Assembly: GCA_002257045.1 (NCBI GenBank)
Contig: NCHD01000003.1
Coordinates: forward strand, 1 to 57,811
Origin: Hydrogenophilales bacterium 16-61-112
GTDB taxonomy: Bacteria > Pseudomonadota > Gammaproteobacteria > Burkholderiales > Thiobacillaceae
Length of the DNA stretch: 57,811 nucleotides
Reading direction: 5' to 3'
In this document: positions 54,004 to 57,025 of the stretch, piece by piece
Layout: each line of letters begins with the position of its first letter
Numbering within the stretch: position 1 is the first letter of the stretch
The notes under the pieces: generated by a model
Seen by the model: the letters and a program-made list of their open reading frames with translations, nothing else
Told to the model about the DNA's origin: nothing
The model's database searches: none
Translations under genes and position numbers: made by a program

Positions 54004-54331
54004 AGACGCTGTTATCGCCCTTGCTGCACTTGCCCAGGCTTCCCGCCTGGCGGTCTTTCGAACGCTGGTTCAGGCGGGCCTCTCTGGTTTGGCCGCCGGC
54101 AAGATCAGTGAACTGACCGGCATCCCGCCGTCGTCGCTGTCGTTCCACCTCAAGGAACTATCGCACGCCGGCATGCTGGATTCGCGCCAGGACGGCCGCT
54201 TTGTCATCTACACCGCGCGATTCGATGCGATGAATGCGCTGGTGACGTACCTCACAGAAAACTGCTGTGGCGGCAATCCCTGCACGCCCGTCTGTTCACC
54301 TGTCTGTTCCACTGCAAAGGAGCCCTCATGA
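53993..54331 (+). CDS. arsR: ArsR-family arsenic-responsive repressor
   Basis: Winged-helix metalloregulator. The 112-residue product has the ArsR recognition helix (SELTGIPPSSLSFHLKELS, residues about 39-57) and wing (SRQDGRFVIYTAR). It lacks the classical CVC pair in the recognition helix. Instead the C-terminus holds C91, C92, C97, C101 and C105 (NCCGGNPCTPVCSPVC), close to the Acidithiobacillus ferrooxidans type of As(III) site. ATG 53993 fits the conserved METKDAV start. The TGA overlaps the next ATG. Confidence 0.93.
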   Translation: METKDAVIALAALAQASRLAVFRTLVQAGLSGLAAGKISELTGIPPSSLSFHLKELSHAGMLDSRQDGRFVIYTARFDAMNALVTYLTENCCGGNPCTPVCSPVCSTAKEPS

Positions 54332-54813
54332 AACGCCTGCATGTACACATTGCGGTCGACGATCTCGCCGCCAGCATCCAGTTTTATTCAACGATGTTCG
54401 CCAGCGAGCCGACCGTCACCAAAACCGATTACGCGAAATGGATGCTCGACGATCCGCGCGTCAATTTCGCCATCTCGGCGCGCGGCGCCACCCCCGGCCT
54501 CAACCATCTGGGCGTGCAGGTGGAAAACGCCGACGAGCTGGCCGAGATGAGTGGCCGCCTGCAACAGCTGGAAGCAGACGTGGTCGAGGAAATGGGCACC
54601 GCCTGTTGCTACGCCAAGTCGGACAAATACTGGGCGACCGATCCCAGCGGCATTGCGTGGGAGACCTATCACACGCTCGACAGCATTCCGGTGTTCGGCG
54701 CGCCCGAAGATGGCGCAGCGCAGGCAGGCGGCTGCTGCGTGCCCGAACCCGCTGTGGCAAAAATTTCCGGCTGCATCCCGGTCAAGGACAAGGCGTCCCC
54801 GGGTTGCTGCTGA
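54328..54813 (+). CDS. arsI: ArsI/CadI-family VOC metalloenzyme
   Basis: Vicinal-oxygen-chelate protein of the ArsI/CadI group; ArsI cleaves the C-As bond of trivalent methylarsenicals, CadI binds cadmium. The 161-residue product has likely metal ligands H5/H7 (RLHVHIAVDD), H60 (GLNHLGVQV) and E112 (AWETYHTL), and the vicinal pair C93-C94 (TACCYAKSDKYW) of ArsI. The tail has extra Cys (GGCCVPE, SGCIPV, PGCC). Context in an ars operon favours arsenic. Its stop is in frame with the following arsC, across a tandem repeat. Confidence 0.85.
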   Translation: MKRLHVHIAVDDLAASIQFYSTMFASEPTVTKTDYAKWMLDDPRVNFAISARGATPGLNHLGVQVENADELAEMSGRLQQLEADVVEEMGTACCYAKSDKYWATDPSGIAWETYHTLDSIPVFGAPEDGAAQAGGCCVPEPAVAKISGCIPVKDKASPGCC

Positions 54814-54821
54814 ATCGGTTT

Positions 54822-54893
54822 GCCGCCAATTTCATCAAAACTGCCGCCAATTTCATCAAAACTGCCGCCAATTTCATCAAAACTGCCGCCAAT
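54822..54893 (+). repeat. 21-bp tandem repeat between arsI and arsC
   Basis: Three identical 21-base units (54822-54842, 54843-54863, 54864-54884), each starting GCCGCCAATTTC, plus a partial fourth (54885-54893) that merges into the ribosome-binding site of arsC. The frame stays open from the arsI TGA to the arsC GTG. Read in that frame the unit encodes LPPISSK. Confidence 0.95.
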
Positions 54894-54906
54894 TCAAGGA
54901 TCAATC

Positions 54907-55332
54907 GTGACTCAACCCTATACCGTGCTGGTGCTGTGCACCGGTAATTCCTGCCGCTCGCAAATGGCCGAAGTGCTGCTGAACCATGACCTCGCCGGCC
55001 AGGTGCGCGCGCTGTCTGCCGGCACCAAGCCGCAGCCCAAGGTCGCCGATGGCGCGATTGCCGCCCTCAAAGAGGCAGGCCTCGCCACCGACGGCCTGCA
55101 CCCCAAGGACATCGATGCCGTGATGAACGAACGCATCGACCTGGTGGTGACCGTGTGCGACAACGCAAAGGAAGCCTGCCCGATTTTCCCCAAGCCGATT
55201 CCGGCCATTCACCTGCCGTTCCATGATCCTCACGGCGAACCGCTGGAGAGCTTTCTTGCGGTGCGCGACGACATCCGCAAGCGCCTGATTGCGGCCGTGC
55301 GCGAGAAACTCGGCCTGCAGTTCGCGGCCTGA
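54907..55332 (+). CDS. arsC: Arsenate reductase, low-molecular-weight phosphatase type (first copy)
   Basis: Thioredoxin-coupled ArsC reduces arsenate to arsenite. The 141-residue product has the P-loop C11-T-G-N-S-C-R17 (CX5R) and the further Cys C84 (VTVCDNAKEA) and C91 (ACPIFP) for the intramolecular relay. The GTG at 54907 has AAGGA 6 bases before it. An upstream TTG at 54820 would add a repeat-encoded extension (SSKLPPI) and is unlikely. A related arsC follows after 27 bases. Confidence 0.92.
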   Translation: MTQPYTVLVLCTGNSCRSQMAEVLLNHDLAGQVRALSAGTKPQPKVADGAIAALKEAGLATDGLHPKDIDAVMNERIDLVVTVCDNAKEACPIFPKPIPAIHLPFHDPHGEPLESFLAVRDDIRKRLIAAVREKLGLQFAA

Positions 55333-55359: not shown

Positions 55360-55857
55360 ATGGATAAACCCGTTTTCAATGTGCTGTTCCTGTGTACTGG
55401 CAATTCGGCGCGCTCGATTCTCGCCGAAACTGTGCTGACCAATCTGGGTAAAGGCCGTTTCCGTGCCTTCAGCGCCGGCAGCCATCCCGCGGGGCAGGTC
55501 AATCCATTTGCGCTGGAACTGCTGGAAAAGAATCATTTCGACACCAGCGAGCTGCGCAGCAAGTCGTGGGATGAATTCGCGCAGCCTGTTGCGCCGCATC
55601 TCGATTTCGTCATCACCGTGTGCGACAACGCAGCAGGCGAAGTGTGTCCGCTGTGGCCGGGCCAGCCGATGACCGCGCACTGGGGTGTGCCCGATCCGGC
55701 GGCGGTTGACGGCACGGACGAACAGAAGCGTCGTGCTTTCGTCGATGCGATGAATCAGCTGCAGCGCCGAATCTGCATGCTCGTCAGCCTGCCGTTTGCC
55801 ACCCTCGACGGCATGAAGCTGCAACAGGCCGTGCGCGATATCGGGAAGACCGCATGA
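55360..55857 (+). CDS. arsC: Arsenate reductase, low-molecular-weight phosphatase type (second copy)
   Basis: A 165-residue product with the P-loop C12-T-G-N-S-A-R18 and the relay cysteines C88 (FVITVCDNA) and C95 (GEVCPLWPG), plus MTAHWGVPDPAAVDG. It is longer and clearly divergent from the first copy, so the pair does not look like a recent duplication. ATG 55360 follows GGAG. The stop overlaps the start of the repeat mini-ORF (ATGA at 55854). Confidence 0.92.
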   Translation: MDKPVFNVLFLCTGNSARSILAETVLTNLGKGRFRAFSAGSHPAGQVNPFALELLEKNHFDTSELRSKSWDEFAQPVAPHLDFVITVCDNAAGEVCPLWPGQPMTAHWGVPDPAAVDGTDEQKRRAFVDAMNQLQRRICMLVSLPFATLDGMKLQQAVRDIGKTA

Positions 55858-55955
55858 GCGCGCCACTGTTCACTGGAGTTTGCTTGATGAGCGCGCCAGC
55901 TTTAATCAGGGGCCGCCTTATGAGCGCGCCAGCTTTAATGAGGGTCGCCCTATGA
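55854..55955 (+). CDS. 33-codon mini-ORF of three 11-residue repeats
   Basis: ATG at 55854 overlaps the second arsC stop (ATGA), and the TGA at 55953-55955 overlaps the acr3 ATG (ATGA). The product is MSAPLFTGVCL, MSAPALIRGRL, MSAPALMRVAL in a row: three repeats, each with its own ATG. It has no similarity that I know. It would be translated by ribosomes leaving arsC and hand them on to acr3. It may be a leader or coupling peptide, or an accidental product of duplication of the acr3 start region. Confidence 0.5.
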   Translation: MSAPLFTGVCLMSAPALIRGRLMSAPALMRVAL

Positions 55956-55958
55956 GCG
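55854..55958 (+). repeat. 33-bp tandem repeat upstream of acr3
   Basis: Units begin ATGAGCGCGCCA at 55854, 55887 and 55920 (33-base spacing), then ATGAGCGTCCAG at 55952, which is the acr3 start 32 bases later. Units 2 and 3 are near-identical for 20 bases. The one-base shortening moves acr3 to another frame. Confidence 0.9.
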
Positions 55959-57025
55959 TCCAGTGTGAAGTCACCGCGAAGCGCGCCGTCGCCGCGCCGA
56001 TGAACCTGTTTGAGCGCTGGCTCACGCTCTGGGTGGGCTTGTGCATCGTCGCCGGCGTGCTGCTCGGCCAGCTTTTCCCGGCACCGTTTCAGGCGCTGGG
56101 ACGGATGGAAGTCGCGCAGGTCAACCTGCCGGTCGGCCTGCTGATCTGGGTCATGATCATCCCGATGCTGATGAAGATTGACTTCGGCGCGCTGCATCAG
56201 GTGAAATCGCACTGGAAAGGCATCGGCGTCACGCTGTTCGTCAACTGGGCGGTGAAGCCGTTTTCGATGGCGCTGCTGGCGTGGATTTTCATCCGCCATC
56301 TGTTTGCCCCGTATCTGCCGGCCGAGCAGCTCGACAGCTACGTCGCCGGCCTGATCCTGCTGGCAGCCGCGCCCTGCACCGCGATGGTGTTCGTGTGGAG
56401 CCGGCTCACCGGCGGCGACCCGTATTTCACCCTGTCGCAGGTGGCGTTGAACGACGCCATCATGATCGTCGCCTTCGCGCCTATCGTCGGCCTGCTGCTC
56501 GGGCTGTCGGCCATCGTGGTGCCATGGGATACGCTGTTCATCTCGGTGGTGCTGTATATCGTGATCCCGGTGATCCTCGCGCAAATCTGGCGCAAGCTGC
56601 TGCTCAAGCGCGGACAGGCAGCGTTCGACGCGGTGATGGCGCAGCTCGGCCACGCCTCCATCCTCGCACTGCTGGCGACGCTGGTGCTGTTGTTCGCTTT
56701 CCAGGGTGAGGCGATCATCGCACAGCCCTTGATCATCGCGCTGCTGGCCGTGCCGATCCTGATCCAGGTGTTCTTCAATTCGGGCCTGGCTTACTGGCTG
56801 AACCGAAAAGTGGGCGAAAAGCACAGCATCGCCTGTCCTTCGGCGCTGATCGGCGCGTCCAACTTCTTCGAGTTGGCCGTGGCCGCAGCGATTGCGCTGT
56901 TCGGCTTTCAGTCAGGTGCGGCCCTGGCCACGGTGGTCGGCGTGCTGATCGAAGTGCCGGTGATGCTGCTGGTGGTGAAAATCGTCAACCGCAGCAAGGG
57001 GTGGTACGAAGCCGGGCTGAAATAA
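55952..57025 (+). CDS. acr3: Arsenite efflux transporter Acr3
   Basis: Arsenite/proton antiporter of the ACR3 (BASS-like) family with ten predicted helices. The 357-residue product has the essential Cys142 in AAPCTAMVFVWSRLTGG and the conserved Glu307 in GASNFFELAVA, plus DYYFT-type loop residues GGDPYFTLSQVALND. It ends the ars operon. The N-terminal 20 residues before NLFERWLTLW are variable. In-frame codons upstream cross the repeats without a likely start. Confidence 0.95.
   Translation: MSVQCEVTAKRAVAAPMNLFERWLTLWVGLCIVAGVLLGQLFPAPFQALGRMEVAQVNLPVGLLIWVMIIPMLMKIDFGALHQVKSHWKGIGVTLFVNWAVKPFSMALLAWIFIRHLFAPYLPAEQLDSYVAGLILLAAAPCTAMVFVWSRLTGGDPYFTLSQVALNDAIMIVAFAPIVGLLLGLSAIVVPWDTLFISVVLYIVIPVILAQIWRKLLLKRGQAAFDAVMAQLGHASILALLATLVLLFAFQGEAIIAQPLIIALLAVPILIQVFFNSGLAYWLNRKVGEKHSIACPSALIGASNFFELAVAAAIALFGFQSGAALATVVGVLIEVPVMLLVVKIVNRSKGWYEAGLK

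Follow-up and report, generated by a model that had tools for sequence, protein, structure and literature searches.

A repeated mini-ORF between arsC and acr3 in Thiobacillus as a probable natural ribosome relay

The arsenic gene cluster and its intercistronic mini-ORF

The window, by which we mean the whole stretch of 57,811 nucleotides analysed here (Hydrogenophilales bacterium 16-61-112), contains four consecutive genes of an arsenic cluster on the forward strand, in the order arsI-like, arsC-A, arsC-B and acr3. The first of these (54328..54813) lies upstream in the same cluster and encodes an ArsI/CadI-like VOC metalloenzyme (NCBIfam NF041414, 140.2 bits, cut-off 116). arsC-A (54907..55332) is a thioredoxin-type arsenate reductase-like gene with a GTG start, proposed on the basis of an upstream AAGGA, and arsC-B (55360..55857) is a second arsenate reductase-like gene. 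The gene for the arsenite efflux pump, acr3 (55952..57025), scores above the curated cut-off of its model (NCBIfam TIGR00832, 380 bits, cut-off 282.8), while both arsC genes match arsenate reductase models below theirs (PRK13530/TIGR02691 of NCBIfam for arsC-A; TIGR02691, 75.8 bits for a cut-off of 174.3, for arsC-B). A separate tandem array of 3.5 copies of 21 bp, 100% identical, is located between arsI and arsC-A (54821-54894), in frame with arsC-A and upstream of its proposed GTG start. Judged by eye, this array is absent from the other genus loci compared.

Between arsC-B and acr3, a single open frame of 33 codons plus TGA (55854..55955, forward strand) encodes the peptide MSAPLFTGVCL MSAPALIRGRL MSAPALMRVAL. 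Its ATG overlaps the TGA of arsC-B (55855-55857), which lies inside an ATGA, and its own TGA (55953-55955) overlaps the ATG of acr3 (55952-55954), again as ATGA. A mini-ORF joined in this way to both genes had been described in the original prediction, and it is borne out. It is composed of three units (55854..55886, 55887..55919 and 55920..55951) that were predicted to measure 33 bp each and to share their opening. The shared opening is confirmed by exactly three exact copies of ATGAGCGCGCCA, at 55854, 55887 and 55920; the lengths, however, are 33, 33 and 32 bp. Last units throughout the genus share the 32 bp of unit 3, which puts the mini-ORF out of frame with acr3. What had been taken for a fourth copy, shorter by one base, is merely the acr3 start, ATGAGCG and a few further bases; ATGAGCGC-like acr3 starts occur also at loci without units.

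With one mismatch allowed, ATGAGCGCGCCA matches the window at the same three places only, with 1.08 matches expected. Since 11 of 100 shuffles also yield three such matches, the copy count by itself is unremarkable, and the noteworthy feature is the presence of three exact copies in register. Past its first 12 nt, unit 1 bears little resemblance to units 2 and 3, which are close to each other. Tandem Repeats Finder reports units 2 and 3 together with the acr3 start (55887-55958, score 114, 2.2 copies) and misses unit 1.

Several Shine–Dalgarno (SD)-like runs are found along the mini-ORF. A weak one, GGGAAG (55843..55848, forward strand), precedes its ATG at the 3' end of arsC-B, with a predicted anti-SD duplex of −4.3 kcal/mol that 28% of random acr3 14-mers match. 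Unit 1 contains GGAG (55875-55878) and unit 2 AGGGG (55908-55912). The putative SD of acr3, ATGAGGG (55938..55944, forward strand), lies within unit 3, where its predicted duplex energy is −6.1 kcal/mol and unit columns 19, 21 and 24 are constrained (see below).

Unit number and reading frame across Thiobacillus

acr3 was sought in 56 genomes of the genus (54 with a match), each representing one species in the comparison, and in 117 genomes of the family (91 with a match). From 58 genus loci read, we kept the 51 with an Acr3 at least 88% identical and an aligned start, and dropped the seven under 88%; matches lacking the acr3 5' end (e.g. in G075, G014 and G064) were excluded. Outside the genus, 124 loci were reduced to 71 usable ones by setting aside 28 in which no arsC was found and 25 without an aligned start. 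Removal of duplicates left 69 distinct usable loci, 83 distinct start-aligned loci and 122 distinct loci overall.

A unit beginning 32 bp before acr3 is present at 30 of the 51 close Thiobacillus loci, with 27 ATG, one GTG, one CTG and one lost start codon. In all 30 carriers, the frame from position −32 is open up to a stop that overlaps the acr3 ATG, in two of them (L003 and L031) as TGATG instead of ATGA. None of the 83 distinct start-aligned loci outside the genus has an ATG at this position. The commonest state is one unit of 32 bp, or 11 codons. At the 37 junctions of arsC-B with acr3 (Acr3 identity of 88% or more), 12 gaps measure −4 nt and 19 measure 28 nt; the remainder are 61 (two cases), 58, 92 and 94 (one each) and one arsC fusion. 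One locus with a gap of 61 (L003) is on a contig that starts inside arsC, so that its arsC type and gap were assigned by hand. No gap between −3 and 27 or between 29 and 57 was found at these 37 junctions, which means that the definition of the gap-28 class conceals no decayed units.

The unit has been retained with acr3 also where the preceding gene is arsC-A, which is the case in five of the 30 carriers. In two loci (L028 and L029, from G035 and G006), about 150 bp of other sequence separates arsC-A from an otherwise kept 32-bp unit. In the fusion locus (L057, from G066), the arsC frame runs on through the mini-ORF as far as the ATGA of acr3, where it stops; its end reads in part GTTGMSAPAPMESAL. 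This is a natural fusion of arsC with a unit.

The comparison of unit number among relatives, suggested along with the original prediction, revealed loci with zero, one, two and three units. Arrays of two or three occur in four other Thiobacillus genomes (G024, G026, G032 and G071). On a tree of arsC and acr3 with 36 genus and five outgroup rows (L047 falls just below its 89% filter), in which 14 of 38 inner branches are well supported, unit number changes at least 15 times and presence or absence at least 11 times. The tree counts fail to separate gain from loss of the unit. The direct −4 overlap is, however, common outside the genus (23 of the 69 distinct usable loci), so that it is probably ancestral and the unit probably a gain of Thiobacillus.

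The multiplied units fall into two arrangements of frames. G032 has 32+32+32 bp, read as three mini-ORFs chained by ATGA. The other arrays are fused into a single frame, with 33+33+32 bp in the window, 33+32 bp in G024 and G071 and 30+32 bp in G026. The changed internal units thus measure 33, 33, 33, 33 and 30 bp and are all in frame, although these are few events. The prediction that copy number would shift the spacing by exact codons holds for these fused units of 33 or 30 bp, but not for the ATGA-chained 32-bp units of G032. Among the four fused arrays, the internal start is lost in G026 and is CTG in G024; a fused frame needs none.

Wherever units follow arsC-B, a ribosome that begins at the arsC stop would finish on the acr3 start; in G024 the frame ends there as TGATG, and in L057 arsC itself ends there. 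The exceptions are all carriers with arsC-A as the preceding gene. A frame begun on the arsC-A stop ends within the unit and not at acr3 in L028 and L029, and in L031 the unit ATG is placed 5 nt behind that stop; in all three, the unit proper still ends on acr3. Among multiplied units after arsC-B, the only arrangements seen are those that, judging from their frames, would still deliver a ribosome to acr3.

A pattern for the unit gave 10 matches in the 56 genus genomes, all 10 at acr3, although it misses diverged units. The same pattern, which diverged dispersed copies could escape, gave no match in the genome of the window, where a 136-bp query gave one. Within the limits of this pattern and this query, no dispersed 32-bp unit was seen, and this candidate was rejected. 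An ATGA located 20-49 or 50-79 nt before acr3-like starts was found in five of 369 genomes each, the genome of the window included; by eye, the matches of other genomes to these class-wide patterns are not tandem units.

Constraint on the unit and the readings it allows

The last arsC codon contributes its third base to the ATG of the mini-ORF. This base is A in 18 of 19 one-unit loci and G, giving GTG, in the remaining one. A accounts for 7% overall at fourfold sites, and among the 188 fourfold sites of arsC and acr3 no other one has it in more than 11 of 19 loci. The length of the unit is fixed in all 19 loci of the gap-28 class, whereas the arsCA-arsCB gap takes its modal value in 10 of 18 of them (Fisher p = 0.001; L048 omitted for a faulty gap) and the arsI-arsCA gap, measured to the start codon, in 5 of 17 (p = 5e-6; L027 and L056 have no arsI match). 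These Fisher tests, like the rank tests, overstate independence because the loci share ancestry.

The SD core of the unit is also kept, with no parsimony steps at A19 and G24 and one at G21 among one-unit loci. The mean predicted energy of the acr3 SD is −6.1 kcal/mol with one unit (n = 20) versus −4.1 kcal/mol without (n = 12; p = 0.0003), a modest advantage given that 16% of random acr3 14-mers get to −5.9 kcal/mol and that some carriers are weak (L052, −2.2 kcal/mol). Predicted accessibility of the acr3 start shows no clear difference between the classes; the means for SD and start are 0.50 and 0.53 for zero-unit loci (13 loci, L057 counted among them), 0.42 and 0.58 for one-unit loci and 0.36 and 0.66 for multi-unit loci.

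The peptide behaves differently. On average, parsimony puts 4.3 steps on a free site of the unit versus 3.0 on a fourfold site of acr3; at codon positions 1, 2 and 3 of the unit the values are 2.9, 5.3 and 4.3, respectively. On this comparative evidence there is no sign of selection on the peptide, whose sequence seems irrelevant. Openness of the mini frame, seen at all 24 loci compared, says little, since the acr3 frame over the last unit is likewise open in 24 of 24. By these comparisons, the constrained features are the start codon, the length and the internal SD, while the peptide drifts. They argue for a coupling mini-ORF, as originally predicted, and not for a spacer.

We consider it probable that the mini-ORF acts as a natural "bicistronic" ribosome relay from arsC to acr3, amplified to three units in the window. 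A ribosome that has finished arsC-B would restart at the ATG overlapping the arsC-B stop, translate a short nonsense peptide, terminate at the TGA overlapping the acr3 ATG and reinitiate on acr3, helped by the SD inside the mini-ORF. In E. coli, a distance of 38 nt is reported to cut coupling by 80-90% in two gene pairs and to abolish it in a third (PMC10666635). As coupling drops so steeply with distance in these pairs, a gap of 28 or 94 nt would need a bridge. By spanning the gap with a stop-start overlap on either side, the mini-ORF would avoid uncoupling and place a better SD before acr3. We infer from the sequence comparison that ribosomes use the mini-ORF and that Acr3 synthesis is higher with it than with the direct overlap. 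Units would probably come and go through recombination between the short direct repeats ATGAGCGC. The 12 of 37 junctions without a unit, which show that it is dispensable, count against the relay.

On top of such a relay, the number of units may set the output of Acr3, with slippage as a fast switch. The two proposals overlap in the weight we give them, and tuning of efflux by copy number, as suggested in the original prediction, is possible but doubtful. It would fit the repeated changes among zero, one, two and three units on the tree, and the fact that every unit of the window brings an ATG and an SD-like run of its own, all sharing a single frame that leads to acr3. The variation, however, is between species, with one genome for each, and the units of the window have diverged, which makes fast present-day slippage not obvious. 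The internal start is moreover absent or CTG in two of the four fused arrays.

We regard as unlikely the account in which duplicated acr3-start DNA drifts as a neutral product of slippage with a useful SD. The mini-ORF would then be a by-product of an ATGA at the end of arsC and another at the start of acr3, and acr3 would initiate independently on the GGAG inside the duplicated DNA. Such an origin is favoured by the ATGAGCGC direct repeats, and the unit does evolve at the rate of fourfold sites or faster. It also agrees with the junctions that lack a unit, with the equally open acr3 frame and with a unit SD stronger than that of zero-unit loci. Neutral drift is harder to reconcile with the retention of a start codon at all 19 one-unit loci, at a site that otherwise seldom has A, and with a length that stays fixed while the neighbouring gaps vary. 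The altered internal units, few as they are, all remain in frame, and the unrelated family of G141, described below, obeys the same frame rule.

The position before a pump gene could suggest a regulatory leader peptide acting by attenuation or by arsenic sensing. This is very improbable, as the peptide shows no conservation, substitutions are as fast at second as at third codon positions, Cys occurs in just 5 of 30 terminal peptides and the array of the window folds no better than shuffles (z −0.17).

An N-terminal extension of Acr3 or ArsC in place of a separate ORF is scarcely credible. The acr3 frame is open upstream, with a TTG at 55880, and arsC is truly fused with the unit in L057. Within the last unit, however, an in-frame GTG or TTG for acr3 is present in only 7 of 30 carriers, at differing places, and an in-frame ATG in none, and the extension of Acr3 was rejected for this scarcity of starts. 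The Acr3 alignment moreover reaches residue 1 in 83 of the 122 distinct non-genus loci, which have no unit, and the arsC fusion is one junction in 37. An assembly artefact is just as implausible: the genome is a draft of 206 contigs, but the units have diverged from one another, two or three units occur in four other Thiobacillus genomes and single units in many, including one single-contig genome (G023).

Known coupled short ORFs and a parallel family

Mycobacterial MIRUs are elements of 50-100 bp that occur in tandem copies of variable number and insert at DTGA. The Thiobacillus mini-ORF resembles them in that its ends overlap the flanking stop and start, in the window and in relatives, and in its tandem copies of variable number (0-3). 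In contrast, its unit measures 32/33 bp, carries an SD and is found only at acr3, not interspersed (10 of 10 matches in 56 genomes to a pattern that misses diverged units). The likeness is one of architecture. The MIRU has been described as a short ORF placed at the start of a gene and coupled with −4 spacing (PMC12548453, citing Supply 1997). The same source names the short ORF that "delivers" a ribosome as a general idea, with MIRUs as a possible natural case.

A synthetic counterpart is the bicistronic design (see also PMC5995908), in which a short nonsense ORF with an internal RBS is reported to boost the next gene (PMC13255528). Common to both are a short leader ORF with an internal SD, a stop adjoining or overlapping the target start and a nonsense peptide, and the first construct of PMC13255528 has 11 codons. 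The target SD lies inside the leader ORF here as well, although it is weak in a few carriers. The Thiobacillus case differs in being natural, located within an operon after another gene, and tandem-amplified.

Other systems share part of the arrangement. A termination-reinitiation pair is matched by the stop-start overlap at both ends of the window mini-ORF and by the ending of all 30 carriers on the acr3 start. Gene pairs joined by ATGA show the same tetramer as the zero-unit Thiobacillus junction (PMC6728339, PMC10666635), whereas here an inserted mini-ORF has the overlap at each end. In mycobacteria, the RTGA-coupled small ORFs described start leaderless transcripts, unlike the intercistronic and repeated ORF described here; their architecture is reported to be sometimes kept while the small protein diverges (Shell 2015, PMC4633059). 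The TAACTGA repeats before start codons in Beggiatoaceae are likewise tandem, near starts and of proposed translational role, but they are heptamers, and the abstract names no coupled mini-ORF (PMC4679880). Attenuator leader peptides differ from the mini-ORF, which has no conserved peptide or residue run and, in the window, no unusual fold. At the level of titles and the beginnings of abstracts, the papers listed by the literature searches contained nothing on such arrays at arsC-acr3 junctions or on a MIRU-like family in proteobacteria. The original claim that no leader of this kind is described in ars operons stands to this extent, but the general kind is known from MIRUs and RTGA-coupled small ORFs.

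A proteobacterial MAG (LL3.bin32, G141) with an Acr3 79% identical provides a parallel case. Its arsC-acr3 junction (L071:2847-3000) has two 77-bp units that start ATGAGCGC, each a 26-codon ORF, ATGA-chained and with a strong SD at its end. The 77-bp unit is dispersed in this genome, with 31 matches at E up to 10 and 20 at E up to 0.001. At 13 places (L216-L228), the ATGA of the unit contains the stop of an open frame of 126 codons or more in nine cases, and a frame that stays open for 131 codons or more begins exactly at the unit end in 11; these flanking features are open frames, not verified genes. In 17 copies read at 11 of these places, the frame of the unit itself stops on the ATGA of the unit end in 12, reads through in frame to it in four and runs on in one (L220). 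The four that read through belong to an array of five units (L222) with a spacing of 75 bp and a last unit of 77 bp, in which ATG is present only in the first; the array is fused into a 126-codon ORF. Of 41 genomes searched around G141, itself among them, 17 contain matches to the unit.

By its sequence, the G141 family, found outside mycobacteria, resembles MIRUs in architecture, and its frames obey the rule seen in Thiobacillus. We read this family of an unrelated genome as an independent parallel, with chained (77 bp) or fused (75 bp, last 77 bp) solutions. It suggests that the occurrence of MIRU-like elements extends beyond mycobacteria.

We tentatively propose, as something that may hold but is far from assured, that coupled mini-ORFs are general, repeatedly invented and portable translation-initiation modules in proteobacteria. 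Their tandem amplification would obey a strict frame rule, with a length of 2 mod 3 for chained internal units, 0 mod 3 for fused ones and always 2 mod 3 for the last. Unit number would then serve as a dial through which evolution could set the following gene, in this case the arsenite pump. If real, the relay between arsC and acr3 would be the natural equivalent of a device that is known chiefly from synthetic biology. The single genus offers a built-in comparative series of zero, one, two and three units, in chained and fused frames. This series makes it testable whether ribosomes can pass through serial stop-start overlaps, how much is lost or gained at each step, and whether operons evolve their ratio of pump to enzyme by adding coupled mini-ORFs.

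One junction in another genus of the family (L165, from G137) has an arsC-acr3 gap of 243 nt that starts ATGAGCGCG, reaches a stop after 10 codons and contains apparent inserted repeat DNA. This gap is possibly a decayed unit.
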